From NCBI RefSeq assembly GCF_902859765.1, contig NZ_CADIJV010000007.1, positions 113,486-177,485 of the forward strand: DNA of 64,000 nt. The letters run 5' to 3'. A program made the translations under genes and the position numbers. Below are positions 43,064-61,222 of this stretch, one piece after another (the first letter of the stretch is position 1; every line of letters starts with the position of its first letter). The notes under the pieces were generated by a model. The model was not told the DNA's origin. It saw only the letters and a list, made by a program, of their open reading frames with translations, and searched no databases. The DNA comes from Achromobacter pulmonis. Lineage in GTDB: Bacteria; Pseudomonadota; Gammaproteobacteria; Burkholderiales; Burkholderiaceae_B.

Positions 43064-43112
43064 GGCGACCACCGCGCCGGCCAGGAAGGAAGGGGAATCA
43101 CGGGCTTCATCA

Positions 43113-45212
43113 TCAATACACCAGACGGGGCTTGCCGCAGTCCACGGACAGCAGCGATACATCGGTTTGGCCAACGCTCAGGCCGAGCATGTCCAGCAAT
43201 TGCTGCAGCAGGTTCGACAGCATGCCCAGCAGCGGCTGCAACAGCGTGACCACGATGGACAGCACGCCGCCCACCTGGTTGCCGCCGCTCAGGGCCAGCG
43301 AGGACACCGCATTGACACGGCATTGGCGGATGGCATCGGGGGTGATCGCCAGCGCGCAAGTCAGGTCGCTCAATGGCGCCAGCAACAGTGAATTGAGCAG
43401 ATTGCCCACCAGTTGCAGCGTGCCGCCCAGCACCCCGGTCAGGCCGCCCGTGGCCATGCGCTGGCCCAATTGGTTGAGCGCGGTCGAGGACCACTGCATG
43501 TCGTTGACCACCTGCGAAATCGATTTTCCCGGATTGCTGCCGCCGCCGCCCACCAGCGTAGTGGCGAGCGAGGTGCGCTGCGCGGCGGTCAACGGCGTGC
43601 CGGTGCCGATCAGATCGCCCAGGATGCCGCCGACCACGGCGTCGGCCAGATTGCCCGCCAACGCGCCCAGATCGACCGAGGTGGCGTTGACGGTGGCGGT
43701 GGAATCGGGCGATGGCGGCTCGGTCAGCGTCACCGACACCGGCGCGGTCGAATTGAAGATCGGCAGTGTCACCTTGCTGGTGAGCGGCAGGATGCCGAGC
43801 ACCTTCAGCACCTGGTAGCGCTGGATCGCCGCGAACGAGCCCGGCTGGCAGCTGTTGGTGAGGGACAGGAAATTGGCCTGCACGGGGTCGACGGCGGACG
43901 CCATGCCCGGGAAGCGCCCCAGGCAGATATTGGCCACCGACGAGGTCACGTCAATGGTGGCCTGCGATTCGGTCAAGGGCGCCTGGCACAGCTTGGATAC
44001 GGTGCCGGTGGACTGCGCCACGTCGATGATGACCGGCAGGTCGATGTACGAGCCCAGGGTGTTGGCCAGCAGCGGCCCGACCAACGGGATATTGCTGGTG
44101 TTGGCCCGCAGGTAGACGCGGATGCCGGCGCTGGTGGCCTGGGCGCCGACGCCGCCGACGCCGATGGTGGGCGGCTCGACGATGCGCACCTGCGACTGCA
44201 AGCCCAGCAGCGGCACGCTCAACCCCAGGTCCACCAGGTTCTGGCCGTTGGCGACGACCAGCGCGGTCTCCAGCACATTGAGCGCATTGACGTTGGCCTG
44301 CAGCGCCGAACTGACGTCGCCGCCGATGACATTGAGGTCGAGCACGCCGCCGTCGCCGAACAGCTTCACCGGCAGATTCAGCGGCATCACGTTGAGCACC
44401 ACGTTGATGGCATCGGTCAGCAGCCCGACGCTGGCCCCGGCGGTGCCGCCGGCCTTGTTCATCACCGTGAGCGTGGCCTGCAGCAGTTGCCCCAGCGTCA
44501 GGTTGCTGAGCGCGGCCAGTTGCTCCGGGGTGCCCACGCCAGTGGCCACCGACACCGGCAGCCCGAGCGCCTCCAGCAGGCCGGAAGGCGTGATGTTGAC
44601 ACTCGCCAGGCCGGCGGCGTCAAGCACGTCCAACTGCGCCGGGGTGGCGCCGACCGTGGTCAGCAACTGCGACAGCAGGCCGCCCCGCTGCAGGCGCAAC
44701 AGGCGCGAGCCAACCGTGAAGACCGCGACCGGCTGGGTGTTGGTGGCCACGGAAACTACCCGGACCGGCGCGCCGTCGGCAATCCCCGGCAACAGGCTCC
44801 GCAGGGACTTGCTCAGCGTGATGCGCAGCGCATTCGGCGCCTGGCCGCCGGCGGGGTCGAACACGTACATGCCGTTGGCATCGGCGCGGCTGGTGTCCCA
44901 CACCTTGCACTCGACGGTCACGTCGGTGGCGGAGAAGGTTTCGAGGATGTTGGGCACATTGGCCAGCACCGCCGCCTGCCCCGCGGCCTGGGCCCGGGCG
45001 CAATCGGCGGGCGCGCCCAGGCCCAGTACCTGTACCGCCGACAAGGCGGCCAGGTCCGACGCCTTCTGCATTTCCCGCTTCATGTAGTAGGCGTAGCCCA
45101 GTTGCGCCACGCCCAATAGCACCACGCCGACGATGACCACGAAAATGATGGCCACGGTCATGCTGCCACGCTGCCGCGGGCAGATCGCAGAATGAAGCGG
45201 GATGGCTGGCAT
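43113..45212 (-). CDS. tadG: TadG-like Flp pilus assembly protein
   Basis: This 699-residue protein has an N-terminal pseudopilin-like region ([47 protein letters not shown]) that forms one transmembrane anchor. A long repetitive Leu/Val/Gly-rich exported part (about residues 150-690) follows. TadG proteins act in Tad pilus assembly or surface anchoring. ATG at 45212 has GGAG 8 bp upstream. The gene is near the distal end of the tad operon. The size and repetitive body are unusual compared with shorter TadG proteins. Confidence 0.85.
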
Positions 45213-45260
45213 GATCGTGGCTCCGTGGCTCGATGAGGCGGGCGAGGCTCCTTGGTGCGC

Positions 45261-45689
45261 CTAGTTGGTGTTATTGGTCTGGACCCGCTTGGTGAACCAT
45301 TCGGGGATCGGGTGGCTGAAGCTTTCGAGGTAGCGATTCCAGGCCGCCGTGGACGTCGCCCCCAGCACCGGCAGCGCGGCGCCGGCACGGCGGCCGTCGG
45401 CCTGCGCCGCCAGCAGGCCGCGGGTGATGTCGCCGAATGCCTCGGAGGCCGGCGCGGCCGGCTGGGCCGCCGGCGCCGCGGCCTGCGGCAGCGGCGTCTG
45501 CACCTGTTGCACCACGGGCCGGGCCGGCATCGGCGCGGCGGCCGCAGGCGCTGCCGGCACCGGCGTGGCCTGGGCCGCGCCGCCGCTCATGGCGCCGGTC
45601 AGAGGCGCGTTCGATTGCGCCTGGCAGGCCCAGGGCACGGCCCCGCCCAGCGCCAGGGTGAGAGAAAAGAAGGTAGCGGTTCGAGACAT
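45261..45689 (-). CDS. DUF3613-family tad-locus protein
   Basis: This 142-residue exported protein has a signal peptide (LTLALGGAVPWACQAQS), a long Pro/Ala-rich stretch and a short C-terminal domain with WNRYLESFSHPIPEWFTKRV, the DUF3613 pattern. Members occur in betaproteobacterial tad loci. The role is unknown; it lies between tadD and tadG, 15 bp from tadD. Confidence 0.8.
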   Translation of the reverse strand: MSRTATFFSLTLALGGAVPWACQAQSNAPLTGAMSGGAAQATPVPAAPAAAAPMPARPVVQQVQTPLPQAAAPAAQPAAPASEAFGDITRGLLAAQADGRRAGAALPVLGATSTAAWNRYLESFSHPIPEWFTKRVQTNNTN

Positions 45690-45704
45690 GGTGGCGGTTC
45701 CTGG

Positions 45705-46628
45705 TTAGCGCACGATCGGGCCATTGCCCAGTCTGTCCATCAAGGGGCTCATGACCGGCAGCACGATGCCCTCCCCGCGCGATACCCGGGTGGCGGCCGC
45801 TTCGGTGGCCGACGGGATCTGCGTCACCGTGGCCGTGGCGCCTGCCGGCGTCCCCGGCGCCACGGCCAGCGGCGCGGCGGCCTGGCTGCGGATTTCGGTC
45901 GCCAGGCGCAACACCTGGCCGCGCGCTTCCTCGCTGAGCCTGGCACGGTCCATCACGTTCTGGGCCCGCACCGGCTCGCCCTCGACCAGCAGCAGCAGGG
46001 CCAGATTGGCCAGCACCTTGGCGTTCTCCGGCGCCAGCTCGGCGGCCTGGCCCAGCGGCACGCGCGCGCCGGCCGGATCGCCAGCCCGCAAGCGCGCAAA
46101 CCCCAGGTCGCCCAGGATGCCCGGGTCCATCGGCGCAAGCTTGGCGGCGCGGGCGAAATCGTCGGCGGCCTGCTCGAACTGGCCGCGCGAGCCGGCGATC
46201 AGGCCCAGTCCGTGCCAGCCCTCGGCCGCCTGCGCGGTGCCGATCAGGGCGCGGTAGGCCTGCTCGCTGGACGCGGTCTGGCCGGTCTGGCGCAGCGCCT
46301 CGGCGCGCAGCACCGCGATGCGCGGATCATTGCCGAACTTCTGCTGGAACGCGTCGATGTAGGCCAGGGAGGCGAAATACCGCTGCTGGCGCTGCGCCTC
46401 GGCGATCATCGACAGCATCATGTCCGGCTCGGCCGGCTTGCGCCGGTTCTCGGCCTCGTCCTCGCGCTGCCGCATCAGCGCCTGTTCCTGCTGTTGTTGC
46501 TGGATCAATTGCCAGGCGGTCTCGGCGTTGTTGCTCTGGCAGCCGGCCAACGCCCCGGCGCCCGCGACTACCGCCGCCAGCAAGGTCCAACGCCACGCAC
46601 ACCGCGCCCTTCCCATTGCGCCCGCCAT
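45705..46628 (-). CDS. tadD: TadD-like TPR pilotin lipoprotein
   Basis: This 307-residue protein has a lipoprotein signal (AGALAGC) and tetratricopeptide repeats across about residues 85-240 (AYRALIGTAQAAEGWHGLGLIAGSRGQFEQAADDFARAAKLAP...). TadD acts as pilotin for the Tad secretin. The ATG overlaps the tadC stop (TGATG), which fixes the start; a GTG one codon earlier is also possible. Confidence 0.88.
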   Translation of the reverse strand: MAGAMGRARCAWRWTLLAAVVAGAGALAGCQSNNAETAWQLIQQQQQEQALMRQREDEAENRRKPAEPDMMLSMIAEAQRQQRYFASLAYIDAFQQKFGNDPRIAVLRAEALRQTGQTASSEQAYRALIGTAQAAEGWHGLGLIAGSRGQFEQAADDFARAAKLAPMDPGILGDLGFARLRAGDPAGARVPLGQAAELAPENAKVLANLALLLLVEGEPVRAQNVMDRARLSEEARGQVLRLATEIRSQAAAPLAVAPGTPAGATATVTQIPSATEAAATRVSRGEGIVLPVMSPLMDRLGNGPIVR

Positions 46629-47632
46629 CACATGCCCCCCATGCGCGACAAACCGCGCAATACCGCCACGAAGCCCGCGCCGCCGGTCACGATCAACAGC
46701 GCCGGCAGCAAGGTCACAATCATGACCGCCGTCATCTTGACGGTGGTCTTGCCCACTTTTTCCTTCAATTCCAGGCGGCGCTTCTCGCGCAAGCGCTCGC
46801 CGAAGCGGTTGAGCGGCTCCTGCACCGCGCCGCCGTGCTGGTCGACCTGCGCGATCAGGCGGCAGATGGCCGACAGATCGTCGTTGTCGAAGCCCGTCGC
46901 CAGCCGCGCCAGCGACTGCTCGCGGGTGCGGCCGCGCACATACAGTTCGGACGCCAGCCGCAGTTCATGCGTCAGCACCGGCAGCACCTGATTGAATTCC
47001 TTGGTCAACACTTGCAGGCTCTGATCGATCGACAGCCCCACCCCCTGCAACAGCCGCAGCAGGTCGATCAGCAGCGGCAGTTCGTTGGCCGCCTGCCGGC
47101 GCCGGCGCGACACGCGGCGGCGCACCAGCCATTTGGGCAGCATGTAGCCGATGGCGAAGCCGAAGAACGCGGCCACGAACAAGCCCAGCGCTGAACCGCT
47201 GACCGTGCGCCCCAGGTCGAACGCCACCGCTGCGGCCGGCAACAGCAGCGCCAGGGTGAAGCGCGCCACGATGAAGCGCAGCCGCGCCGTGACCGGGTTG
47301 TCATAACCCGCCAGGTCGACCAGCTTGCGGTCCTCGCCGGCCAGCAGGGCCTCGGCGAAGCGGCCTTCGCTCAGGCGCTTGCCGAACGAATCGGCCGCGC
47401 GCGTGGCCGCCGCCAGCCGCCCCTGCCCGCCTTCGGCCGGCGCCGGCGCTTCGGCCGGCGCCCTGGCGCGGCCCTCCCGCTTGGCCAGGGCCTGGTCCAC
47501 CACCTGGCGGCTGCGGTCCTGCCCGCGCAGGCGCCGTGTCATGCTCAGGCCCACGATCAGCATCGCGGCGGCGACCAGCATCAACGCCACCGCCAGCACG
47601 GTCGAGACATTCCAGGATTCGATCGCTGGCAT
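46628..47632 (-). CDS. tadC: TadC inner-membrane platform protein
   Basis: This 334-residue type II secretion F-domain protein has an N-terminal transmembrane segment, a charged Ala/Pro linker, two central hydrophobic segments, the F-domain (LPLLIDLLRLLQGVGLSIDQSLQVL...) and a C-terminal membrane pair. It forms the inner-membrane platform with TadB. ATG at 47632 (MPAIESW) is preferred; the longer frame upstream overlaps tadB. Confidence 0.9.
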   Translation of the reverse strand: MPAIESWNVSTVLAVALMLVAAAMLIVGLSMTRRLRGQDRSRQVVDQALAKREGRARAPAEAPAPAEGGQGRLAAATRAADSFGKRLSEGRFAEALLAGEDRKLVDLAGYDNPVTARLRFIVARFTLALLLPAAAVAFDLGRTVSGSALGLFVAAFFGFAIGYMLPKWLVRRRVSRRRRQAANELPLLIDLLRLLQGVGLSIDQSLQVLTKEFNQVLPVLTHELRLASELYVRGRTREQSLARLATGFDNDDLSAICRLIAQVDQHGGAVQEPLNRFGERLREKRRLELKEKVGKTTVKMTAVMIVTLLPALLIVTGGAGFVAVLRGLSRMGGM

Positions 47633-47643
47633 CCGCGGCGTCC

Positions 47644-48572
47644 TCAAATGGCCTTGGCCATGCGGTACAGGATGTACGAGCCACCCAGTTGCAGACAGAC
47701 CGCCGTCATCAGCATCTTGAAGCCGAGCGGGTCGACCCACAGTCCCATGAACAAGTCGTTGTTGGCCACCATGATGAAGCCGGCGATGCCCAGCGGCAGC
47801 AGCGCCAGGATCCAGGCCGACAGCCGGATCTCGGCCGAACTGGCCGACAGCTCGGCGCGCGCCTGGCCGATGTCGCGCATGAATGCCGCCATGCGTTCCA
47901 GCACCTGGTCGCTGCGGCCGCCAAAGCGCAGCGCCACCGACACCACCGCCGCCACCATGTAGAGCTCCTTCATGTCGTACTGGCGCGAGACCTGCACCAG
48001 CGCCGCATCCAGTTCCTTGGCCGAGCGGCTCAGCGCGGCCGCGGTCTCGACCACTTCGCGCAGTGGTTCGTCGGTGGCGGCCGCGGCTGTCTGGAAGGCC
48101 GCCGCCATACTGTTGCCGATGGTGACCAGGCGCACGATGTTGTCCAGGAACGCCGGCAGCTGCGACACCCGCCGCCGCTGGCGCCGGTCGGCGCGCAGCC
48201 ACAGCAGGAAATAGGCGAACACCGACAGCAGCACCAGCGCCACCAGGGCCGACAGCCAGCCCAGGAAAGCCCAGGCCAGCAGCGCCCCCACCACGATGGG
48301 CAGGATCAACTTGGCGTAGAAGCCCGGGCTCTGGCGCACCCCGCCCTGCAGCAACAGCATGTCCCAGCGCGAAAAGCCGCTGCGCAGCGCGCGCGCGCCC
48401 TGCGCGAACGGCATCTTGCCGCTGACCGGCGCGCCGCGGCTGCGGCGCAACTGATCTTCGAGAAAGGCCGAACTGGCGGCGCGCCGCTGGCCGCTGTTGG
48501 CGTGCCGCCACAGCAGCACCGCCGCCAGGGCCAGCACCAGCGCCAGTCCACCGATCACGCCGGCTTGCAGCA

Positions 48573-48573
<1 letters not shown>
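47644..48573 (-). CDS. tadB: TadB inner-membrane platform protein
   Basis: This 309-residue F-domain protein has an N-terminal membrane segment, a central hydrophobic pair near residues 90-130, the F-domain (LPAFLDNIVRLVTIGNSMAAAFQTAAAATDEPLREVV) and a C-terminal membrane pair. It pairs with TadC and the TadA motor. The ATG overlaps the tadA stop by one base. Confidence 0.9.
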
Positions 48574-49928
<1,355 letters not shown>

Positions 49929-49948
49929 GTGGGATCCCGCCGCCTGCG

Positions 49949-51280
49949 TTACTCGACCACCATGCGGCGGTGCACGCCGGGCAGCCAGGTGGCCAGCCAG
50001 CTTGCCCGGCCGCCGGGCGTGTTTTCTTCCGCGCTCAGCTTCTCGGCCAGCGCCTGCACCGCGCGCACGTAGATGTCGCGCTCGGCCTCCTCGTGCAACA
50101 GGTGGCCCTGGTTGGTACAGACCATCAGCGCCAGCGTGCGGTCCGGCAGCGTGCCGATCAGATCGAGCTGGAAACGCTCGGCGATCTGCTGCGCCGTCAT
50201 GCCATAGCGCTCGTCGTAGCGGTTGACGATCAGGCCCAGGCTGCGGCGGTCCACATGCAACTGCTCCAGCTCCTGCAACAGCCCGGCCAACGACACCAGC
50301 GCGCCCACGCTCTGGTCGGTGACGATCCAGTTATGCTGCGAGGCGCGCGCCAGGCCGGCGACGAATTCGGGATTGCTGAACCCGCCCGAATCGGCCACCA
50401 CCACGCCGAAATGCTGGCGCATGCGTTCGAACACCAGCAGCGAATCGGATTGCGACACCTCGCGCATCTGGCTCAGGTCGCGCGGCAGCGCCAGCACGCT
50501 CAGGCCATTGGCGGTATGCGACATGGCCGAACTGAGCAAGGTCGAATCGAGGCGGCGCAGGTTGCGCGCGGCCTCGGCGAAATCGAAATCGCCGCCGATG
50601 TTCAGGTACAGCTGGCAATCGCCCACCGGCCAGCCCAGGTCCATCAGCGCCACCCGGCTGTCCAGGGGCAAGTGGCTGCCGTTGTCGCTGGCCGGCTTGG
50701 CGCCCTTGACGCCCGAAGCCGCGCCGCGCGCGGCGGATTGCTGCTTGAGACGATCCTGCACCATACCCGCCAGGTGCACGGCCAGGGTGCTGGTGCCGAC
50801 GCCGGGGCGGGCGCCCAGCAGCAGCACGCTGCGGCGCGAGCCATCCATGCGGCCATCGCCGGCCGGCCCGTCCAGCAGGCGCTGCACCACGTCCTTGACT
50901 TCCTGCGGCGCCACGGTCGGATCGACGAAGTCGCTGACCCCGGCGCGCAGCGCGGCGATGGCGCCTTCCGGCTGGCTCAGCAGGCCTACCGCGACACGCG
51001 GGATCGCCGGCGCGATGCGCGCCAGCAGACGCGCCAGCTCGGCCGACTTGAACAGCTTTCCGGGTTCGTCCTCGCTCAGGGTGAAGTCCAGGAACACCAC
51101 CTGCGGCTCGATCTCGGCCAGGCGCCTGCCGAATTCTTCGACGCCCGGGACTTCCTGGGTCAACATGCCCATGTCGCCCAGCGCCTGGCCGAGCTGCGCG
51201 GCGACGCTGTCGCCCCTGGAACAAAACAGAAACCGATTGCCGTTCTGCAAGCCAACCCACTCCCTGGCATGTGTCTTCAT
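49949..51280 (-). CDS. tadZ: TadZ/CpaE-like localisation protein
   Basis: This 443-residue protein has an N-terminal receiver-like domain (about 1-135; VVFLDFTLSED) and a C-terminal MinD/ParA-like domain. The deviant Walker A reads GARPGVGTST, where the usual Lys residues of KGGxGKT are replaced, so ATP hydrolysis is doubtful. TadZ proteins mark the pole where the Tad machine assembles. ATG at 51280 is preferred over the frame extending into rcpA. Confidence 0.9.
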   Translation of the reverse strand: MKTHAREWVGLQNGNRFLFCSRGDSVAAQLGQALGDMGMLTQEVPGVEEFGRRLAEIEPQVVFLDFTLSEDEPGKLFKSAELARLLARIAPAIPRVAVGLLSQPEGAIAALRAGVSDFVDPTVAPQEVKDVVQRLLDGPAGDGRMDGSRRSVLLLGARPGVGTSTLAVHLAGMVQDRLKQQSAARGAASGVKGAKPASDNGSHLPLDSRVALMDLGWPVGDCQLYLNIGGDFDFAEAARNLRRLDSTLLSSAMSHTANGLSVLALPRDLSQMREVSQSDSLLVFERMRQHFGVVVADSGGFSNPEFVAGLARASQHNWIVTDQSVGALVSLAGLLQELEQLHVDRRSLGLIVNRYDERYGMTAQQIAERFQLDLIGTLPDRTLALMVCTNQGHLLHEEAERDIYVRAVQALAEKLSAEENTPGGRASWLATWLPGVHRRMVVE

Positions 51281-51285
51281 ATCGC

Positions 51286-52668
51286 TCACCGTGAAAAGCC
51301 CGGCATTTGCTGCCCGCCCGCAGGCCCCATGAGGTAGTACCCCCAAGCGTTGAACGCGGTATCGGCCGCCTCCTGCCTGGCCCCGGGCAGCGGCAGCGTG
51401 ACACCGCGCGCAATGGGCCGCACCAGGCGCGGCGTCACCACGATCACCAGCTCGGTGTCCTCCTGGGTGTAATCGACGCTGCGGAAAAACGAACCGATGA
51501 TGGGCAGGTCGCCCAGCATCGGCACTTTATTGACCAGCGCCCGGGTCTGGCGCGACACCAGGCCGCTGATGACGAAGCTCTCGCCATCGCCCAGTTCCAC
51601 CGTGGTGTCGGCGCGGCGCGTGCGCAACGCCGGGATCAGCGTGGTCGAATTGGTGCCGTTGGAAACCGCGATGGCATTGCTGTAGTCCAGTTCGCTGGCC
51701 TCCGGCGCCACCTTCAGGGCAATGCGCTCGCGCGACAGCACCGTGGGCGTGACGGTCAGGCCGATGCCGAACGGCTTGAACGTCACCGTGGTGGTGCCCA
51801 GGCCGCCAGCCTCGGGAATCGGCAGTTCGCCGCCCGCCAGGAAGCTGGCGCTCTGGCCCGTCAGCGCCACCAGCGTAGGCTCGGCCAGCACGCGCGCCAT
51901 GCCATTGTTCTGCAGCAGCCGCAGGCGCGCGCTGAAATCATTGGAGTCGTAGAACAGCGAGAAGCCCGAGGCCAGCGCCGCACCCTTGTTGAAGCCCAGC
52001 GGCGCGGAAAAGCCGTCCGGGGTGATCGAGTTGGTGCCGCCCCACGGACCGCTGCGGCCGGCGAAACTGATGCCGGCCTGCTTCATGACCGAGCGCGAGA
52101 CCTCGACCACCTTGACCTCGACCTGCACCACGCCGCCCGTGCCGGCGGTCGACACGTCGACCACGTTCTTGCCGCCCACCGTCGCGCTGGCGGCGGCCAC
52201 CGAGGCCTGGTGCGTCAGTGGCGAGTCGGCCTGGCCCGAGATCACCGCCCGGTCGCCCGCCACGTCGACGTTGGCGCCGCCGGACACGCCCCGCCCGGCC
52301 ATGACCTGCTGCACCTCGCCGGCGACCCGCAGGTTCCAGCGCTGCGGCGCGGCGTTGGCGCCGGTCCAGACCTGTAACTGCGTGGTTCCGGGCTTCCTGC
52401 CATACAGCAGCAACGCCGCCTGGCGCTTGCCGGAGGCCGGCAACACCTTGATGTCGGCCACATCGGGATCGCCGATGGCGATACGCGCCGGCGCGCCGTC
52501 CAGCAGGAGCGTCTGCTGGCCTTTGACGCCAACCACGATGTCGCGCGCGGGCGCGCTGGCGCCCGGCGCGGTTTGCAGCGCGGTCTGCGCCAGCGCGGCG
52601 CTGCCGCCGGCCATCGCCGCCGCGGCCGACAGGACACAAGTCAGGGTGGTGCGCTGAAATCTCTTCAT
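51286..52668 (-). CDS. rcpA: RcpA/CpaC outer-membrane secretin of the Tad pilus
   Basis: This 460-residue secretin has a signal peptide (AAAAMAGGSAALAQ), an N-terminal pilus-assembly domain (VGVKGQQTLLLDGAPARIAIGDPDVADIKVL), BON-like and N1-type regions, and the secretin core (VLAEPTLVALTGQSASFLAGGELPIP, VGLTVTP-like strand, PMLGDLPIIGSFFRS...ELVIVVTPRLV). It forms the outer-membrane pore for the Flp pilus. ATG at 52668 gives the signal peptide. Confidence 0.94.
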   Translation of the reverse strand: MKRFQRTTLTCVLSAAAAMAGGSAALAQTALQTAPGASAPARDIVVGVKGQQTLLLDGAPARIAIGDPDVADIKVLPASGKRQAALLLYGRKPGTTQLQVWTGANAAPQRWNLRVAGEVQQVMAGRGVSGGANVDVAGDRAVISGQADSPLTHQASVAAASATVGGKNVVDVSTAGTGGVVQVEVKVVEVSRSVMKQAGISFAGRSGPWGGTNSITPDGFSAPLGFNKGAALASGFSLFYDSNDFSARLRLLQNNGMARVLAEPTLVALTGQSASFLAGGELPIPEAGGLGTTTVTFKPFGIGLTVTPTVLSRERIALKVAPEASELDYSNAIAVSNGTNSTTLIPALRTRRADTTVELGDGESFVISGLVSRQTRALVNKVPMLGDLPIIGSFFRSVDYTQEDTELVIVVTPRLVRPIARGVTLPLPGARQEAADTAFNAWGYYLMGPAGGQQMPGFSR

Positions 52669-52733
52669 TTGCTGGATCTGAGTAACAGGTAAGGTCCAGC
52701 CGCGGGCGGCACCAGGCCACGCGCAGCCACGTT

Positions 52734-53702
52734 TCAATAGCGCACGCGCTCGGATTTTTCTCCTCGCAGTATTTCCACGGTCCGGCCGCTGCCGGCGCGG
52801 GCCGGCGCGGGCCTGGCAGCCGGGGCCGGCACGGGCTTGGCGGCCGGCGTAGGCGCGTCCAGTTGAGCCAGGCTGTCGCCGGCGTAGGCGCGGTTCGGGC
52901 CGCTCTGCAATTGTTCGAGTTGTTCGGCGGTCAGGTCGGCGCGCGCGGGCAGCACGGCGCTGCGCTGCGCGAACAGCCGGGTGTCGGGCTTGCCGTCGTC
53001 ACCGATCGGCCGCAGCGCCAATTGCAAGCGGCCGGCGCGGCTGGCCAGCATCAGTTCGTTGACATGCTCGACCGGCACGGCCAGCACCGCCGTCCTGGCG
53101 GGTTGCCCCGGCGGCCCGGGCAACAGGGATTTTTCCTCGGGGCCGTCCACCGAGGCCGCGCCGTATGCCAGCACGCGCACCTGCGATTGCAGCAAGCGCG
53201 CCTGGCCGCCAGGGATCTCCAGGCCCTTTTCCACCACGAAGAACACATCCACCAGGTCCCCCGGCGCAATGCGGTTGGCGCCGCCCACCACCTCGTCGAC
53301 GGCGATCGCCAGCGCGCGCTCGCCCGGCTTGAGCTGGCGCGCCAGCCCCTGCGCCAGCATGCTCGGCAGCAATGGATCGCCGGCGGCCAGGTCGACCCGC
53401 GTATAGGCTCCCTGCAGCGGCTTGATCGAACTGTAGCTGCCCGACAGCGCCACCTGCCATTGATCGATCCTGAGCTGCTTGTCGCCTTCGAGGCGCGTGC
53501 CCGCGGGAATCGCCGCGGCCGCCACCACCACGGGATAGCGCTTGACCGGCGCCTCGGCCGGCGCCGGCGGCGTGGTCGCCACCGGGCTGGCCGGCGCCGG
53601 CGCGGGTGGCGGCGGCGCCGAGGCCAGCCGCCATGCCACGAACGCCAGCACCAGCCCCGCGGCCAGCAGCACACCCGCGATGATTTTGCTCAGACTGCTC
53701 AT
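52734..53702 (-). CDS. cpaB: RcpC/CpaB Flp pilus assembly protein
   Basis: This 322-residue protein has an N-terminal membrane anchor (IIAGVLLAAGLVLAFVAWRLA), a Pro-rich linker, an SAF-type domain (VVVAAAAIPAGTRL...GDPLLPSML) and the CpaB body (AIAVDEVVGGANRIAPGDLVDVFFVVE). It is periplasmic and works with the secretin. The ATG overlaps the preceding TadE-like stop (ATGA). Confidence 0.92.
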   Translation of the reverse strand: MSSLSKIIAGVLLAAGLVLAFVAWRLASAPPPPAPAPASPVATTPPAPAEAPVKRYPVVVAAAAIPAGTRLEGDKQLRIDQWQVALSGSYSSIKPLQGAYTRVDLAAGDPLLPSMLAQGLARQLKPGERALAIAVDEVVGGANRIAPGDLVDVFFVVEKGLEIPGGQARLLQSQVRVLAYGAASVDGPEEKSLLPGPPGQPARTAVLAVPVEHVNELMLASRAGRLQLALRPIGDDGKPDTRLFAQRSAVLPARADLTAEQLEQLQSGPNRAYAGDSLAQLDAPTPAAKPVPAPAARPAPARAGSGRTVEILRGEKSERVRY

Positions 53703-54190
53703 GGCGCCCCTTGGGAAATTTGCACGATGGCCCTGGACGACAGCCGGGTCGGAATCCAGTTCTTGTCGGTGCCGGGCAACATGGCGATGAACGCCTGGAA
53801 GGTCGACAGCACCGGCCAGGCCTGCACGTTGAACGTCATGGCAACGGTGCTGCATTGCGCCGTCTGCCCGCCCGACCCGCTCCAGGCGCAGGGCGCGCTG
53901 GTGGTGCGGCAGGCAACCGCCGAGCCGCTGCCGAACACGCTCATCGCCGCCGAACAGGCCGCGCCGGGCACGTCCGCCTCGCCGGCAAAGCGCGCGTGGA
54001 CCGCGGCGCGCGCGCCCTCGGAGGCGGCCGCGGCCAGCTGCTGCTGCATCCAGAACAGCACGCCATAGCCGACCACGGCGCAGACGAACATCAGCAGCAT
54101 GGTCACCATCAACGAGAATTCGAGCGTGGCGATGCCGCGCTGGCGGCGCCCGTGGCCGCGCATGGCGGGAGCGGCGGCGCGCGCGGCCAT
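53699..54190 (-). CDS. TadE-like minor pseudopilin (2)
   Basis: This 163-residue protein has the short basic leader and pseudopilin motif RQRGIATLEFSLMVTMLLMFVCAVVGYGVLFW, with the Gly-x4-Glu-Phe pattern that prepilin peptidase cuts. A Cys-containing globular part follows (four Cys between about 95 and 130). It is coupled by TGATG to the upstream TadE-like gene and by ATGA to cpaB. Confidence 0.88.
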   Translation of the reverse strand: MAARAAAPAMRGHGRRQRGIATLEFSLMVTMLLMFVCAVVGYGVLFWMQQQLAAAASEGARAAVHARFAGEADVPGAACSAAMSVFGSGSAVACRTTSAPCAWSGSGGQTAQCSTVAMTFNVQAWPVLSTFQAFIAMLPGTDKNWIPTRLSSRAIVQISQGAP

Positions 54191-54699
54191 CAGTTGCTCC
54201 CGTCCAGGGCATTGCCCAGATGGACCGTGGCGCGCGCGCTGAGCACGCTGGAAGGCGGCATCAGGGCCTGGGCCAGAAAGGGGAAATTGGGAATCAGCGG
54301 ATTGGCGCCGTAGGGGTAGCTGACCGTCACTTCGATCTGGTCGGCGCTGAGCGGCTGGCCGCTGCAGGCGCCGCCGGCGGCGCTGCTGAGTGTGCCCGCG
54401 GCCCCGCACACCGCCACGGCGACGGCGGCCGAGGACATGGTGGTGATCCAGCCGGCGCGGTCCAGCGCGATATCGCGGCCGGCGTTGGCGCGCATGGCCA
54501 GCGAGGTGGCGCCCGGCTGCCATTGCAGCACTTTGCGCGCGCCGTCCTGCGCGGCCAGGGTGACCGAGTGCTGCGCGGTGAACACCAGTGCGTACGTCAG
54601 GATGGCGTAGAACACCAGGAAGAACACCACGAATACCAGTCCGAATTCAAGGGAATAAACGCCACGCTGAGGGCGGCCAGGCCGAGGTAGGCGCCGTAG
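54190..54699 (-). CDS. TadE-like minor pseudopilin (1), start unresolved
   Basis: The frame encodes a basic leader and classic pseudopilin motif (RPQRGVYSLEFGLVFVVFF), then a globular part ending in HLGNALDGSN. No ATG, GTG or TTG occurs in frame from about 54830 down to 54631. The first is GTG at 54630, which lies inside the hydrophobic segment and would remove the cleavage motif. The upper boundary given is only the extent of pseudopilin-like sequence. The gene overlaps the 3' end of the prepilin peptidase gene in another frame by about 100 bp. Possible explanations are a non-standard start, a frameshift, or a sequence error. Confidence 0.7.
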   Translation of the reverse strand, partial: LRRLPRPGRPQRGVYSLEFGLVFVVFFLVFYAILTYALVFTAQHSVTLAAQDGARKVLQWQPGATSLAMRANAGRDIALDRAGWITTMSSAAVAVAVCGAAGTLSSAAGGACSGQPLSADQIEVTVSYPYGANPLIPNFPFLAQALMPPSSVLSARATVHLGNALDGSN

Positions 54700-55151
54700 G
54701 GGATCTGACGGGCCCGAAGCGGCAACGTCCGGCTGCGGGCGATGAACCGGTAGAGCAAGGCATGCAGGCCGGCCAGCAGGCTGGCGGCCACTAGCGTCAT
54801 CGACAAGGGAGCAAAGCCCATCAAGAGGCCGAGGATGGCGATCGCCTTGACGTCGCCCGCGCCCATCAGGCGCCGGGTCCAAAGGGGAAAGAAGGGCAAT
54901 GCCAGCGCAAAGCCGGCGAGCGCCATGGACCAGCTGGTCCAGCGCGGCGGGTAGCTCCAGGCCGGCACCAGCCATGCGGCCAGCAACCACAGCGCCTGTC
55001 CCGCGAATCCCGCGACGATGAGCGAGTTGGGTACGCGGCGATAGCGCAGATCGGTGTATATCAACACCAGATTCCAGCATGCGAACAACAGCCACCACAG
55101 CACTTCCCCTGGATACAAGGCAGGACCTTCCGACGGTTTCGGATTCAACAA
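54597..55151 (-). CDS. tadV: TadV/CpaA prepilin peptidase (A24 family)
   Basis: This protein of about 184 residues has the two catalytic Asp motifs of A24 aspartic peptidases: YTDLRYRRVPN and MGAGDVK. It has six or so hydrophobic segments. It processes the Flp prepilin and the TadE-like pseudopilins. The start is uncertain: TTG at 55151 is the outermost, while TTG at 55118 has an AAGG ribosome-binding site. The last 15-20 residues overlap the next gene and look unlike family ends. Confidence 0.88.
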   Translation of the reverse strand: MLNPKPSEGPALYPGEVLWWLLFACWNLVLIYTDLRYRRVPNSLIVAGFAGQALWLLAAWLVPAWSYPPRWTSWSMALAGFALALPFFPLWTRRLMGAGDVKAIAILGLLMGFAPLSMTLVAASLLAGLHALLYRFIARSRTLPLRARQIPYGAYLGLAALSVAFIPLNSDWYSWCSSWCSTPS

Positions 55152-55385
55152 CGGGAGTGTCCGTCCAGACGAACACCGTCTCCTTTCTCTGACCGACTGG
55201 CAAAGCCGGGCCGCGCCCGGCGCTCACGCCGCCGGGCGCAACGCCGTCAACCCGCAACCGCCTCGATCCGCCGCGCGGCAAACGCAGTCAACATCGATTC
55301 CGCGCCAGGCGCGGCGGCCGGCCCGGCCGCCCGGCGTTGCCTGGCCACGGCCAGGCCCGCCGGCAACCGGCCGGGCCCCGCGGCC

Positions 55386-55562
55386 TCACGTGGAGGCAGC
55401 GGCGAGCTTGGCCTGCAGCGACGTGAACAGGCCGCTGAGCGCGCCCGTGAATGTCGCCAAAGCCGCCACCAGCGCCACCGCGATGGTGCCCGCGATCAGC
55501 CCGTATTCCAGGGCGGTAATGCCATCTTCGTCGTTCCAGAACTGCGCAAGTTTCGCTTTCAT
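55386..55562 (-). CDS. flp: Flp-type IVb major pilin
   Basis: This small gene encodes 58 residues: MKAKLAQFWNDEDGITALEY, then a hydrophobic helix (GLIAGTIAVALVAALATF) and a short tail ending LAAAST. The Gly-Ile-Thr-Ala-Leu-Glu-Tyr cleavage and assembly motif is the hallmark of Flp pilins. It is first in the tad locus, and a 234-bp gap with GC-rich hairpins separates it from tadV. That gap probably allows high pilin expression. AGGAG lies before the ATG at 55562. Confidence 0.95.
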   Translation of the reverse strand: MKAKLAQFWNDEDGITALEYGLIAGTIAVALVAALATFTGALSGLFTSLQAKLAAAST

Positions 55563-56641: not shown

Positions 56642-56700
56642 CCTGATGTGTTTTGAAACGTTTATATAGTCTTATCTATTAACAATTAATACACATCAGG
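56642..56700. repeat. Inverted repeat in the TpsB-like promoter region
   Basis: CCTGATGTGT and ACACATCAGG are 10-bp arms separated by 39 bp of very AT-rich sequence. It may be a regulatory dyad or a cruciform-forming element. Confidence 0.5.
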
Positions 56701-56715
56701 GTTTGTACCAGTATT
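56699..56715 (+). promoter_or_regulatory. 17-bp motif shared with the lipoprotein promoter (copy 1)
   Basis: GGGTTTGTACCAGTATT matches the reverse complement of 58890-58906 at 16 of 17 positions. Both copies sit in AT-rich gaps upstream of the TpsB-like and lipoprotein genes, suggesting coregulation, perhaps by the linked MarR protein. Confidence 0.55.
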
Positions 56716-57022: not shown

Positions 57023-58732
57023 ATGAGACGCACGCTTCCTGCAAGTCCGCTTTCCCTCGCCTTGATCTGCATGTTGGCCCCCCTGGGCGCGGCGCACGCC
57101 GACGGCCCATTGCGCGGCAACCCGGTGGATGCCCTGCCCCAGATCGAGCGCCCGCCCAGCGCCACCCAGCCGCCGCCGGTGGTGCAGACGCAGACACCGG
57201 AACAACGGGCGCTGCAGGCGCGCCTGGCGCAGCGCATCGTGCCGCGGCATTTCGATGTCACCGGCGTGCATGCGATACCGTTCGAGGACGTGGCCGCGTT
57301 GCTTTCGCCGCTGTCGGGCAAGGAGATCAGCCTGGGCGAGCTGGTGCAGCAGGTCGACAAGATCACGCAGCTGTACCGCGAGCGCGGCTATCCCCTGTCG
57401 TTCGCGCTGGTACAGAACCAGAACTTCGCCAACGGCCTGGTGGTGGTGACCGTGGTCGAGGGCTACATCGGCACGGTGCGCATCGAGGGCGACATCGGCA
57501 ACGCGCAGGACCGCCTGGAATCGCTGGCCGAGCCGCTCAAGCAGGAAAAGCCGCTGCAGCAGGCCACGCTGGAGCGCGTGCTGAATCTGATGCGCACGGT
57601 GCCCGGCGTGAAATTCACGCCCTCGCTGGACCTGCCGCGCCGCGCCGACGGCGCTACCGAACTGGTGCTGGCGGCATCGCGCCAACCGGTCAGCCTGACC
57701 GGCGGCGTGGCGGACCTGGGCACCGGCATGCAGCCCCTGGTCAACGTCGCCACCAACAGCCTCACCCCGCTGGGCGAACAGGTCAAGCTGACGGCGTCGG
57801 TGCCGTTCAATACCGACGACGTCAAATACGTGTCCGGCGAAATCCGCGTGCCGCTGGGCAACGACGGCCTGGCGGTCAAGGTGGATGGCTACCACTATGA
57901 CGCGCGGCCCAAGGACGAGGCGATCGAATACCTGGGCTTCAATCGCCGGGTCAAGAACGACCGCATCGGCATCGGCATCAGCTACCCGTTCCTGCTGAAC
58001 AACACCCGCTCGCTGACCGGCACGCTGGGGGTGTACGCCGCCAACTCGAAGGACCGCTATGAGGCCAAGGCATCCGACCGCTGGTTGCAGCAGGATGCCC
58101 AAGTGCGCGCGGCCAACCTCGAAATGCGCTATATCCAGGTGTCGGAATCCATGACTTCCGACGTGACGCTGGCGGTCGCCAAGGGCTTCGACGCCGCCGG
58201 CGCCAAGAAGGAGATCAACACCAACTACGGCTATTCGGCGGTGCCGGTGCTCGACCTGGATTTCACCCGCTACAACCTGAATGCCAAGCAGACTTTCGCG
58301 CTGCCGGCGCAGTTCGGCCTGACCCTGTCCGGCGCCGCGCAGTACTCCAGCAACATCCTGCCGTCGTCCGAACAGGTGTCTTTCGGCAGTTGGCGCTACG
58401 CGATGGGTTATCCGCAAGGCGAGCAGAGCGGCGACAAGGGCGTCGGGGTTTCGGCCGAGGTGAATCGCCGCTTCGGTATCGGCTGGCAATATCTGACCAA
58501 TGTGCAGCCGTATGCGCTGATCGACTATGCGCGCACCTGGTACAACAATTCGAGCCTGCAGCAATTGAATCAGCGCCATCTGTCTTCGGTGGCCCTGGGG
58601 CTGCGCTTTACCGACGACAAGTACTATCTGTTTGATTTCAACGTGGCCAAACCGATTGGCTCGGCCACCGTCAACAACAATCGCGACGTGCGTTTCAACG
58701 CCAATTACTCGCTGTATTACGACGCCTTCTGA
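57023..58732 (+). CDS. TpsB/FhaC/ShlB-like outer-membrane transporter (divergent)
   Basis: This 569-residue protein has a signal peptide (ALICMLAPLGAAHAD), a Pro/Gln-rich linker, a POTRA domain (about 70-150; HFDVTGVHAIPFEDVAALLSPLSGKEISLGELVQQVDKITQLYRERGYPLSFALV), a second POTRA-like part, and a beta barrel ending in YSLYYDAF. The Omp85 loop-6 motif, usually VRGY/F, reads YAMGY at about residues 459-463, so the hallmark Arg is missing. No filamentous TpsA substrate lies nearby; the next gene is a repeat lipoprotein. A two-POTRA, 16-strand exporter is the family expectation; the substrate is inferred to be the lipoprotein. Confidence 0.88.
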   Translation: MRRTLPASPLSLALICMLAPLGAAHADGPLRGNPVDALPQIERPPSATQPPPVVQTQTPEQRALQARLAQRIVPRHFDVTGVHAIPFEDVAALLSPLSGKEISLGELVQQVDKITQLYRERGYPLSFALVQNQNFANGLVVVTVVEGYIGTVRIEGDIGNAQDRLESLAEPLKQEKPLQQATLERVLNLMRTVPGVKFTPSLDLPRRADGATELVLAASRQPVSLTGGVADLGTGMQPLVNVATNSLTPLGEQVKLTASVPFNTDDVKYVSGEIRVPLGNDGLAVKVDGYHYDARPKDEAIEYLGFNRRVKNDRIGIGISYPFLLNNTRSLTGTLGVYAANSKDRYEAKASDRWLQQDAQVRAANLEMRYIQVSESMTSDVTLAVAKGFDAAGAKKEINTNYGYSAVPVLDLDFTRYNLNAKQTFALPAQFGLTLSGAAQYSSNILPSSEQVSFGSWRYAMGYPQGEQSGDKGVGVSAEVNRRFGIGWQYLTNVQPYALIDYARTWYNNSSLQQLNQRHLSSVALGLRFTDDKYYLFDFNVAKPIGSATVNNNRDVRFNANYSLYYDAF

Positions 58733-58752
58733 GGCGCCGCGCCGATGATCCC

Positions 58753-58780
58753 GCGCCTGTTGCGACAGGCGCTTTTTTTT
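58753..58780 (+). terminator. Rho-independent terminator after the TpsB-like gene
   Basis: GCGCCTGT and ACAGGCGC form an 8-bp stem with TGCG loop followed by eight T residues, 20 bp after the stop. It separates the transcript from the lipoprotein gene. Confidence 0.88.
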
Positions 58781-58889
58781 GCCTGTTGCACACACCGCGT
58801 TACGTAACGTCGCCCGTAACGTAACGGCTGATACGGGCTCGAACGTAACATTCGCAGGCTGCGCGTGATCGTAAAAATGGGGGATTCTC

Positions 58890-58906
58890 AATATTGGTAC
58901 AAACCC
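58890..58906 (-). promoter_or_regulatory. 17-bp motif shared with the TpsB-like promoter (copy 2)
   Basis: AATATTGGTACAAACCC is the inverted counterpart of 56699-56715 (16 of 17 identical). It lies 162 bp upstream of the lipoprotein ATG. Confidence 0.55.
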
Positions 58907-58996
58907 TCTGTTTTATATTTAACTAATTGATTTTAAACGATTTTTTATAAACAAAAATCAACCCAAAAAAGGACTCGAACGGCATTCGGAAAATAT

Positions 58997-59011
58997 TGGC
59001 ATGGTTTATGC
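58997..59011 (+). promoter_or_regulatory. Sigma-54-like promoter of the repeat lipoprotein
   Basis: TGGCATGGTTTATGC has GG and GC separated by exactly 10 bp and matches most of the TGGCAC-N5-TTGC consensus. The GC is 57 bp before the ATG at 59069. A C-to-T change in the -24 box makes it imperfect. Confidence 0.45.
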
Positions 59012-59068
59012 GTGTAGGGATGTATCGGGCAGTTTCGCCGCCTGACACATCCCCCACAGGAGCTCGCC

Positions 59069-60655
59069 ATGAATGCCAAGATTGAAACGCAACGCGTACA
59101 ACGTATTCTGACTTCCACCGTTATGGCAGCCGCGCTGATGAGCGCCCTGGCCGCGTGCGGCGGTGGTGGTGGTGGTAGCGACAAGAGTTCGGCCTCCCTG
59201 CCCGGCACGAATGTGCCGACCAACCCGGGCGGCCCGAGCGATCCGAACAACCCGAATAACCCGACCGATCCCGTCACCACGGGTTTGCTGCAAACCACGC
59301 TGGGTAATACCGGCGGCGCTGTCGACAATGCCCTGCCCCTGAATCTGGACACCACGCTGGGTGGGGTCGGCAAGGCGCTCGATCCGACCGTCAAGCCGGT
59401 GGTCGACACGGTGGTGGGTCTGACCCAGCAAGTGGGCGCGACCACCGGTCTGGGCCAGCCGGTCGACGGCACCGTCCAGCAAGTGGGCGGCCTGGTCCAG
59501 GACCTGGGCACCACGGTCAAGGGCACCGGCCTGCCCGGCGGCCTGAGCAGCGGCGTCGGTGGCCTGGTCGAAGGCCTGGGCAAGACGGTCGCCAGCACCG
59601 GCGGCCTGCTCAATGCCGACCCGCAGAATCCGCAACCGCTGACCACTATCCTGGGCAACGCCACCAACGCGGTGGGCGCGCTGACCGCCGGCCTGTCGGG
59701 CCAGGGCGGCCTGCTGAACCCGGTCAACCAGTTGGTCGGCGGCGTCACCGGCGGCGTGCTCGACGGCCCGTCCAAGCCCTTGCTGGAACCGGCCCTGGCC
59801 AATGTCGGCAAGACCGTCGACAACGTGCTGCCGCTGGGCCTGCAGCCGACGCTGGGCGGCCTGGGCGCGGCCCTCGACCCCACCGCCAGCCCGCTGGCCG
59901 GGACCGTGGTCGGCCTGACGCAGCAAGTCGGCGCCACGACCAAGTTGGGCACGCCGGTGGCCGGTCTGCTCAACACCCTGGGCGGCACGGTCAGCAATCT
60001 CGGCACGCAGTTGCCCGGCGGTGATGTCGCCGGCCTGAACGGCGTGCTGCAGGGCCTGGGCGGCGCGGTCAGCAGTGCCGGCGGCCTGCTGAACGCCACG
60101 CCGGGCAACACCAACCCGCTCGGCAACACACTGGCCAATGCCACGGGCGCGGTCGCGTCCCTGACCAGCGGCCTGGGCCTGGGTGGCGCGGTCGGCGGCA
60201 ACAATGGCGGCCTGCTCAGCCCCATCACCGGCATCCTGGGCGGCGTGACCGGCGGCGCCGGTGGCGCCAATGGCGGCCTGCTGGCCCCGGTGACCGGCCT
60301 GCTGGGCGGCGTCACTGGCAACCTCGGCGGCGCCACGGGCGGCGCGGCCAACGGCGGCCTGCTCGGCGGCCTGCTGGGTGGCGTGACGGGCGCCACGGGC
60401 GGCACCGCGGGTGGCGGCACCACGGGCGCCAACGGCGGCCTGCTGGGCGGTCTGCTGGGCGGACTGACGGGCGGCGGCACGGCCAGCGCCGGCGGCAGCG
60501 GTTCCTCCGCGGGTTCGGCCAGCAATGGCGGCCTGCTCGGCGGCCTGCTGGGCGGCGTGACGGCCGGCGTCAACGGCGGCACCAGCAGCGGCAGCGGCTC
60601 GACCAACGGCGGCCTGCTGGGCGGCTTGCTGGGCGGCCTGACGGCCAACAAGTGA
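59069..60655 (+). CDS. Gly/Leu-rich repeat lipoprotein, candidate partner of the TpsB-like protein
   Basis: This 528-residue protein has a lipoprotein signal with the lipobox ALAAC (lipid Cys at residue 30) followed by six Gly. After a Pro/Asn-rich spacer come two tandem repeats with a 165-residue period (VVGLTQQVGATT at 115 and 280). The C-terminal third has six copies of an NGGLLxxxxGxLGG(V/L)TG motif, four of them the near-identical NGGLLGGLLGG. The Gly spacing is not Gly-x-y, so a collagen label would be misleading. It is likely an exported, perhaps surface-exposed, self-associating lipoprotein. It follows the TpsB-like gene and precedes a MarR gene. AGGAG lies before the ATG. Confidence 0.85.
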   Translation: MNAKIETQRVQRILTSTVMAAALMSALAACGGGGGGSDKSSASLPGTNVPTNPGGPSDPNNPNNPTDPVTTGLLQTTLGNTGGAVDNALPLNLDTTLGGVGKALDPTVKPVVDTVVGLTQQVGATTGLGQPVDGTVQQVGGLVQDLGTTVKGTGLPGGLSSGVGGLVEGLGKTVASTGGLLNADPQNPQPLTTILGNATNAVGALTAGLSGQGGLLNPVNQLVGGVTGGVLDGPSKPLLEPALANVGKTVDNVLPLGLQPTLGGLGAALDPTASPLAGTVVGLTQQVGATTKLGTPVAGLLNTLGGTVSNLGTQLPGGDVAGLNGVLQGLGGAVSSAGGLLNATPGNTNPLGNTLANATGAVASLTSGLGLGGAVGGNNGGLLSPITGILGGVTGGAGGANGGLLAPVTGLLGGVTGNLGGATGGAANGGLLGGLLGGVTGATGGTAGGGTTGANGGLLGGLLGGLTGGGTASAGGSGSSAGSASNGGLLGGLLGGVTAGVNGGTSSGSGSTNGGLLGGLLGGLTANK

Positions 60656-60682
60656 TCAACCGGTCCGTGAGGGAGCGACGCC

Positions 60683-61222
60683 ATGCTGCAACAAGAAACC
60701 ATCGTCCACCATGAGCATGTCACAGTGATGCCTGAATCCCGCCATAACGATCTGCGACCGGGAACGCTCGACGACATCGCCCTGATGCTGGGCCGGCAGT
60801 TCGCCGTGTACAACGCGGCGTGCCAGTCGGCCCTGGCGGAGAAACTGGGTATCCCCCTGGCGGATCTGAAGGCGCTGGAATTGGTCATGGAGTTCGATGC
60901 CCTGCCCACCGGGCAACTGGCCCAGTTGATGGGCATCAGCTCCGGCGGCGCCACCGCCTTGATCAACCGTCTGGAAGCGGCCGGCTATGTGCAGCGGGGC
61001 CGCCATCCGCTGGATCGTCGCATGATCGTGATCCGGCCGGTCGAGGAGCAATGTCAGCAATTGGCCCAGGAGCGCCAATGGGTGGCCGAAGCAGTGGTGT
61101 TGATGGCCCGGCGCTACGACGCCAGCGAGCTGGAGGTGGTGCATGCCTTCCTGGCGCAGTGCGTGCGCGCCCTGCGGCACGACACGCTGGTCTGGCTGGA
61201 AACCCGCAACGCCCACGACTGA
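60683..61222 (+). CDS. MarR-family transcriptional regulator
   Basis: This 179-residue protein has a winged helix-turn-helix (GQLAQLMGISSGGATALINRLEAAGYVQRGRHPLDRRMIVI) between helical dimerisation regions. An unusual His-rich N-terminal extension (ETIVHHEHVTV) is present. It starts 27 bp after the lipoprotein stop with a GAGGGAG ribosome-binding site, so it is probably cotranscribed and regulates this locus. Confidence 0.9.
   Translation: MLQQETIVHHEHVTVMPESRHNDLRPGTLDDIALMLGRQFAVYNAACQSALAEKLGIPLADLKALELVMEFDALPTGQLAQLMGISSGGATALINRLEAAGYVQRGRHPLDRRMIVIRPVEEQCQQLAQERQWVAEAVVLMARRYDASELEVVHAFLAQCVRALRHDTLVWLETRNAHD

Follow-up and report, generated by a model that had tools for sequence, protein, structure and literature searches.

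A TpsB-family barrel that travels with Collagen_mid lipoproteins, a candidate lipoprotein branch of two-partner secretion

We analyzed a 64,000-nt stretch of contig NZ_CADIJV010000007.1 of Achromobacter pulmonis (hereafter, the window), in which a gene for an outer-membrane barrel of the TpsB/FhaC type is followed by genes for a Gly/Leu/Thr-rich lipoprotein of the Collagen_mid family (PF15984) and for a MarR-family regulator (Table 1). The preliminary description of the window had reported these three open reading frames (ORFs), and their coordinates and sizes were all borne out. The barrel and the lipoprotein family travel together across genomes, an association that is new here, and the TpsA protein that usually partners such a barrel is missing from its neighborhood and from many carrier genomes. 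Because of this pairing and the missing TpsA, we propose that the barrel probably exports the lipoprotein, as partners in a divergent lineage of two-partner (type Vb) secretion in which lipoprotein cargo takes the place of the TPS-domain filament protein.

Co-occurrence of the barrel and the lipoprotein

The conservation of gene order, which the preliminary description had put forward as a check, was examined in 37 other Achromobacter loci. The order barrel, lipoprotein, MarR was kept at all 27 loci whose contigs reached far enough to be informative, the other 10 being cut by contig ends; among named relatives, A. ruhlandii has a barrel 95% identical to that of the window. At the 10 interrupted loci (L050, L052, L053, L060, L061, L063, L068, L073, L074, and L077; L and G numbers are our handles for loci and genomes) the contig ends inside or just past the lipoprotein gene, perhaps because of the repeats in that gene.

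In a set of 101 relatives, the barrel was detected in 46 (E 1e-60 or less) and PF15984 in 45, all of them among those 46, and in the one remaining barrel carrier (G084) the gene beside the barrel encodes a diverged lipoprotein. In 399 Burkholderiales genomes, barrels of this clade scored above 340 bits in 14, the next match being a paralogue in the window's own genome at 228 bits. PF15984 exceeded its cut-off in 10 of the 399, all of which are among the 14 barrel genomes and have a copy within a few kb of the barrel (hypergeometric probability 4e-17, kinship ignored). In three of the remaining four barrel genomes (G084, G131, and G248), a gene next to the barrel or close by encodes a diverged lipoprotein. 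Among 369 gammaproteobacterial genomes, PF15984 matched in five and exceeded the cut-off in three, namely the window's own genome, G632, and G833. The lipoprotein gene lies directly upstream of the barrel gene in both G632 and G833, whose barrels are 27–29% identical to the window's.

We also compared 80 named barrel loci, of which 59 have a lipoprotein gene on the strand of the barrel and no more than 3 kb away, 17 lack one, and four are cut by contig ends. One of the 59 lipoproteins, in Paraburkholderia piptadeniae, is a short remnant, and a second barrel there adjoins intact-looking lipoprotein genes and a tad (Flp pilus) cluster. All 17 loci without a nearby lipoprotein belong to Pandoraea, and 16 of these genomes encode PF15984 lipoproteins elsewhere; in the five Pandoraea clusters that we fetched, the lipoprotein genes stand with a MarR gene next to tad. 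Because Pandoraea carry lipoproteins unlinked from the barrel, the pairing outlasts the loss of linkage. More generally, lipoprotein genes have multiplied and moved to unlinked positions, whereas the barrel is usually present only once. The lipoprotein profile used in these comparisons caught 87 of 89 called lipoproteins, missing one false call and the gammaproteobacterial G833 protein, and could miss very diverged lipoproteins.

The barrel and the lipoprotein had previously been linked on the grounds of adjacency and a shared sequence motif. The link itself stands and reaches far beyond adjacency, because the two co-occur in Pandoraea, where they are unlinked, in other families, in Gammaproteobacteria, and in carriers that are free of TpsA; the shared motif, treated below, is not supported as its basis.

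The barrel and its altered lid-lock

The barrel has the domain order of TpsB proteins (POTRA_2, 2.2e-19; ShlB, 1.3e-16), and the best Protein Data Bank matches of its AlphaFold2 (AF2) model, which has a predicted local distance difference test score (pLDDT) of 82, are CdiB (6wim, E 2.9e-26) and FhaC (4ql0). In FhaC, a lid-lock pairs the Arg of a (V/I)RG(Y/F) motif with the Asp of an (F/G)xDxG motif (PMC4490367; articles cited by PMC number, here and below, are represented by extracts). The window barrel reads AMGY at the first motif, in L6, and LIDYA at the second, so that Arg and Gly are both replaced. Across 43 aligned barrels of the clade, with residues counted by eye on alignment rows, 36 have another residue in place of the Arg (AMGY, GLGY, and similar variants), and the Gly of the strand-13 D-x-G motif is Ala or Ser in all 43. 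Among 16 control barrels, 14 from other genomes and two from the window's own, the Arg is kept in all 16 and the Gly in 14, the strict (V/I)RG(Y/F) motif being present in only two.

Because the TPS-domain partner and the lid-lock residues are both lacking, the pair is set apart from ordinary two-partner secretion, which to our knowledge moves large beta-helical proteins by way of an N-terminal TPS domain. It resembles FhaC/FhaB and CdiB/CdiA in the order of POTRA_2 and ShlB, in the fold of the barrel, in having an adjacent partner gene, and in the proposed assignment of one exported partner to one exporter. It differs from them in that the partner is a lipoprotein without a TPS domain and predicted to be alpha-helical, and in the replacement of the lid-lock residues.

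The lipoprotein

The window lipoprotein matched PF15984 at 2.5e-14 (54.0 bits against a cut-off of 31.1), the best stretch covering profile positions 82–197 of 198, and a Pfam search found no TPS domain (PF05860) in it. Its lipobox is LAAC with Gly at +2, and the pattern rule places the acylated Cys at Cys30. The long repeats noted earlier are real: two parts of about 160 residues align over 164 columns with 54% identity. AF2 predicts the repeat region (residues 73–367) to be all-alpha, with pLDDT mostly about 90 over residues 70–365 and a predicted template modeling score of 0.50. The chain is free of aromatic residues, rich in Gly, Leu, and Thr, and ends in a GGLLGGLLGG tail with Lys as its last residue; a GLLGG...Lys/Arg C-terminus is conserved. 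Unlike collagen-like proteins, it has predicted alpha helices and no long GXY runs, the longest run being three consecutive GXX triplets. It shares PF15984, a lipoprotein signal, low-complexity repeats, and a position near a flp cluster with BCAL1523 and BCAL1524, which belong to the Collagen_mid lipoproteins of the Burkholderia cepacia complex (Bcc-CLPs; PMC10224339).

The missing TpsA

PF05860 was not found near the window barrel, in agreement with the earlier observation that no TpsA partner lies beside it. The barrel might nevertheless secrete an ordinary TPS-domain TpsA encoded elsewhere, with the lipoprotein as a mere neighbor, and the A. pulmonis genome offers candidates for such a role, since it has six TPS domains against five POTRA_2 matches, one of them weak, and three large TpsA genes (G000 contigs 21, 31, and 38; one at a contig end) have no POTRA_2 match on their contig. 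However, these three are 57–92% identical to one another and 32–51% identical to the TpsA of contig 25 (over 282–968 aligned residues), and their sequences suggest that the contig 25 barrel, which is paired with its own TpsA, may serve them too, as one barrel for several substrates. Each of the three remaining barrels of the genome has a neighboring TpsA. Furthermore, in 27 distinct barrel-bearing genomes that we hand-chose across groups (28 handles, one of them a duplicate), PF05860 was absent from 11 (G003, G030, G043, G051, G052, G054, G179, G248, G632, G470, and G473), and a TPS-domain cargo is excluded in these 11 because they have no such match. We therefore regard a TpsA encoded elsewhere as an extremely improbable partner, an explanation that is largely refuted.

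Barrels outside the clade served as controls. Of 15 such loci, 11 have an adjacent ORF of more than 1,000 aa and a twelfth has a 625-aa ORF near a contig end, these ORFs being called TpsA-like from their size and start with no domain search; the profile found a Collagen_mid lipoprotein in none of the 15.

A model for export and points against it

In the model that we favor, the lipoprotein would be made from a sigma-54 promoter, and the activator, a product of the tad cluster, would bind GTTACGTWAC some 180 bp further upstream. It would then pass Sec, be acylated at Cys30, and, bearing no inner-membrane retention signal, be carried to the outer membrane. There, the aromatic-free Gly/Leu/Thr-rich chain would engage the POTRA domains of the barrel, perhaps via the conserved GLLGG...Lys/Arg C-terminus, and be threaded outwards, so that the anchored helical-repeat protein would end up on the cell surface, where it may act as an adhesin or aggregation factor alongside the Flp/Tad pilus.

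Several observations weigh against export. Known TpsB cargo is beta-helical and has an N-terminal TPS domain; here the cargo is predicted to be alpha-helical and would be tethered by its N-terminus, which calls for a different way of threading. Two Methylobacillus-type lipoproteins have Asp at +2, which in E. coli is an inner-membrane retention signal. The pairing also has exceptions: neither a lipoprotein nor tad was found in G223, which has a barrel (346 bits); the Pandoraea horticolens genome has the barrel and no PF15984 match; and the Burkholderiales genome G117 has a PF15984 match below the cut-off without a clade barrel. The two other gammaproteobacterial matches (G515 and G611) are likewise below the cut-off. 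With the lid-lock residues altered, gating may differ, and such a barrel might act otherwise than as an exporter. The linkage to tad could mean that it serves the pilus. The presence of BCAL1524 in vesicles, reported below, is not proof of surface exposure, and our search of the literature found no export experiment.

One alternative is that the lipoprotein surfaces by another route, for instance through the beta-barrel assembly machinery (BAM) or a Slam-like factor, and that the barrel only modifies, releases, or caps it. Slam is used by other surface lipoproteins (PMC9090332, PMC5449769), and the altered lid-lock of the clade barrels is compatible with such a role. However, no Slam-type domain was found among the Pfam matches of the barrel (searched to E 1), and the pairing of the barrel with one lipoprotein family is near-obligate, which makes another route very unlikely in our view. 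Our export model shares with Slam the idea of a dedicated outer-membrane protein that moves a lipoprotein to the surface, and it differs in that the window barrel is a TpsB protein with POTRA domains.

We give roughly equal weight to accepting and rejecting a wider proposal, in which a widespread and unrecognized two-partner branch in Beta- and Gammaproteobacteria would export N-terminally acylated, alpha-helical, Gly-rich lipoproteins through TpsB barrels with a rewired lid-lock. In many Burkholderiales, the cargo genes, unlinked ones included, would form a sigma-54 regulon under an activator carried by tad, making pilus and lipoprotein a single attachment program. If true, a lipoprotein-dedicated branch would broaden the roles of Omp85-type exporters and add a second dedicated route for surface lipoproteins besides Slam. 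The Collagen_mid adhesin family would gain an exporter and a regulator, and its route to the surface could be tested by the removal of one gene. The pair thus suggests a little-explored way to place adhesive lipoproteins on the cell surface.

Sigma-54 promoters and a conserved upstream site

The regions upstream of the barrel and lipoprotein genes are AT-rich, as had been claimed: both have 49% GC, compared to 68% for the window, and they contain its AT-richest 120-bp tracts. In 39 aligned intergenic regions (the window, the 37 Achromobacter loci, and one locus of another genus), the best conserved block was GTTACGTAAC-N7-GTAACGTAAC, and downstream of it in the window lies a candidate sigma-54 promoter, TGGCATGGTTTATGCG. 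The upstream site, GTTACGTWAC, is found 160–300 bp 5' of lipoproteins in several families. Across 122 loci (2.21 Mb), its 10-mers GTTACGTAAC, GTTACGTTAC, and GTAACGTAAC were counted 103 times, and 73 of these occurrences lie within 500 bp upstream of a called lipoprotein, in windows that make up 2.0% of the sequence. About 25 of the other 30, as read from the list, precede lipoproteins that are cut by a contig end or, in Pandoraea, start further downstream; five (in L140, L147, and L188) have no simple fit to lipoprotein starts.

Sigma-54 promoters, defined by at least 9 matches to the 11 consensus positions in the preceding 260 bp, precede 67 of 88 lipoproteins, compared to 7 of 88 on the reverse strand. 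They are present at all 60 lipoproteins with the upstream site, at a distance of 113–303 bp from it (median 180 bp). Because related species do not give independent observations, these site and promoter counts overstate the number of events. Many lipoproteins that do not have both elements are downstream members of tandem arrays or are of Methylobacillus-type or gammaproteobacterial origin. Promoter and site are common to MarR-bearing and MarR-less lineages and to unlinked lipoprotein genes. We fetched six unlinked loci and found both elements in four (L088, L189, L191, and L193), neither in L192, and none called in L190. At these four loci the stretch that we fetched contains Collagen_mid lipoprotein genes with the same site and promoter but no barrel, and their sequences suggest that unlinked lipoprotein genes may form an in-trans regulon. 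In two Pusillimonas loci (L145 and L146), the barrel-lipoprotein pair has a sigma-54-like site without GTTACGTWAC, and no MarR or tad genes were found in the fetched stretches.

The MarR regulator and the shared motif

The MarR gene (MarR_2, 2.2e-11) could instead encode the main regulator, acting through AGGGTTTGTACCA in place of the tad-encoded sigma-54 activator. Beyond the informative Achromobacter loci, where it is always present, it adjoins the pair in all six of the other genera examined in the family and also occurs in Pandoraea. The 59 named lipoprotein loci, a set that includes some truncated by contig ends, have it in 39 cases. AGGGTTTGTACCA lies upstream of both the barrel and the lipoprotein genes, and extracts of studies of B. 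cenocepacia RpoN and NtrC, searched by term, do not mention the lipoproteins or the flp genes (PMC5552954, PMC5491218). On the other hand, AGGGTTTGTACCA, with up to two mismatches, occurs near these genes at 7 of 11 Achromobacter loci but at none of the 12 loci scanned outside that genus, the majority of them with MarR, and the sigma-54 promoter and site extend to MarR-less lineages and unlinked genes. Control mainly by MarR is decidedly unlikely on this evidence.

The MarR gene was not found beside the pair in the loci that we examined from Oxalobacteraceae (Collimonas, Herbaspirillum, and Oxalicibacterium), Burkholderia-type and Methylobacillus-type genomes, and G833; in G632, a MarR gene of weak similarity stands beside a transporter gene, about 3 kb away from the barrel. 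Rather than a core part of the system, as first thought, it is a lineage-restricted accessory. The motif that the preliminary description had given as 17 bp is exact over 13 bp, on opposite strands, with only an imperfect extension to about 17 bp, and its exact form occurs at three places in the 5.67-Mb genome, two of them at this locus. The sigma-54 promoter with its upstream site, which that description did not contain, is the stronger regulatory signal.

A candidate activator and the tad pilus cluster

The last gene of the tad cluster in the window encodes a sigma-54 enhancer-binding protein (Table 1). In all 15 fetched genomes with the promoter architecture, the tad cluster carries an orthologue (53–76% identity) at its far end. 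The 10 control tad loci, all from genomes that lack the pair, yielded none, save one partial match at 35% identity. Three Methylobacillus-type tad loci and the second tad locus of G066 gave no match; these stretches end before the expected position and count neither way. All 15 activator genomes have a sigma-54-like promoter before a lipoprotein, and in 11 an exact copy of the upstream site lies no more than 500 bp from the called start. The exceptions are two Pandoraea genomes with the site about 620 bp away, G179 with the site at about 1.3 kb and an ORF in between, and G050 with one mismatch. The site was not found at the Flp pilin promoter (0 of 67). The activator is a candidate regulator of the lipoprotein promoter, and its co-occurrence with GTTACGTWAC leads us to infer that it binds this site.

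The pair itself is associated with tad: CpaB/RcpC (PF16976) is present in 95 of the 399 Burkholderiales genomes, including all 13 with barrel and lipoprotein, and the pair adjoins a tad cluster in 51 of the 59 lipoprotein-bearing named loci. The lipoprotein might accordingly be an accessory or gating subunit of the barrel rather than its cargo, both helping to assemble or display the Flp/Tad pilus, and the neighboring lipoprotein genes of B. cenocepacia are indeed co-induced with flp (PMC7970998). However, 82 of the 95 tad genomes lack the pair, and no tad genes were found next to the pair in the fetched Methylobacillus-type, Pusillimonas, and two gammaproteobacterial stretches. The duplication and spread of the lipoprotein, with a barrel that usually remains single, also fit cargo better than a fixed subunit. 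We consider a pilus-accessory role unlikely. Tad loci are the usual genomic neighbor of the pair and the carrier of its candidate activator, yet the pair also exists away from them.

Relation to published work

The system had been called undescribed, which is true only in part, because earlier papers describe both the lipoprotein family and, in B. cenocepacia, the gene cluster next to the Flp genes. The genes for the PF15984 lipoproteins BCAL1523 and BCAL1524 adjoin the flp operon and may form one operon together with BCAL1522 and BCAL1520, Bcc-CLPs were proposed to be adhesins, and BCAL1522 was listed as an outer-membrane 'heme utilization-related' protein (PMC10224339); from its size, order, and annotation, BCAL1522 is probably the equivalent of the L183 barrel. 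The putative operons BCAL1524-1520 and BCAL1525-1537 had been noted earlier (PMC2753556). Outer-membrane vesicles were reported to contain BCAL1524, and deleting the gene led to less autoaggregation and less harm to Galleria larvae (PMC10303873), which partly supports the adhesive function that we propose. Contact with host-cell membrane vesicles induces BCAL1520, BCAL1523, and BCAL1524 along with flp genes (PMC7970998). In a fixLJ mutant of B. dolosa, a gene near tad annotated as a response regulator was raised and listed with tad genes (PMC5234846); it may be the activator. We did not find the TpsB-lipoprotein pair in the open-access literature, and the extracts of published text neither name the barrel as an exporter nor describe a sigma-54 regulon.

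Features of the window and minor observations

Table 1 Features at the barrel-lipoprotein locus and the neighboring tad cluster, in window coordinates
Feature	Position	Strand	Basis
TpsB/FhaC-type outer-membrane barrel, 569 aa, POTRA domains and barrel	57023..58732	+	POTRA_2 and ShlB Pfam matches; AF2 model
Gly/Leu/Thr-rich lipoprotein, 528 aa, Collagen_mid family	59069..60655	+	Lipobox LAAC; PF15984; AF2 model; composition and C-terminus
MarR-family regulator, 179 aa, lineage-restricted accessory	60683..61222	+	MarR_2/MarR Pfam matches; relatives beside lipoprotein elsewhere
Shared motif, copy 1, AGGGTTTGTACCA	56698..56710	+	Upstream of barrel gene
Shared motif, copy 2, AGGGTTTGTACCA	58895..58907	-	Between upstream site and promoter of lipoprotein; opposite orientation to copy 1
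Candidate upstream activator site: GTTACGTAAC (58799-58808), GTAACGTAAC (58816-58825), GTAAC (58845-58849)	58799..58849	+	Conserved intergenic block
Candidate sigma-54 (-24/-12) promoter of lipoprotein, TGGCATGGTTTATGCG	58997..59012	+	10 of 11 consensus positions
Sigma-54 enhancer-binding protein, last tad-cluster gene	41657..43174	-	Sigma54_activat 1.6e-63; HTH_8 (Fis-type helix-turn-helix) 2.9e-11; GAFTGA motif
tad/Flp pilus cluster, from Flp pilin (starting 55562) to TadE/G-like protein	43113..55562	-	PF16976; PF13400; Flp pilin pattern

The tad cluster is anchored by a CpaB/RcpC match (PF16976) at G000:C7:166495-166833, corresponding to window positions 53010-53348, and by a Tad match (PF13400) within 43113-45212; the remaining genes we take, from sequence likeness, to be those of a tad cluster. 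Two exported-looking proteins that were not called lipoproteins stand beside barrels elsewhere (L216, 4442-5419, 325 aa; L181, 6362-7099, 245 aa), and a second cargo is possible there. One in-frame TGA was reported in the barrel frame of G369 (L186, 7219-8823, minus strand). Finally, a conserved multi-pass membrane protein, MHYT-like by eye, is encoded at window positions 55703-56563 on the minus strand, between flp and the barrel, and it occupies this place in most Achromobacter loci.

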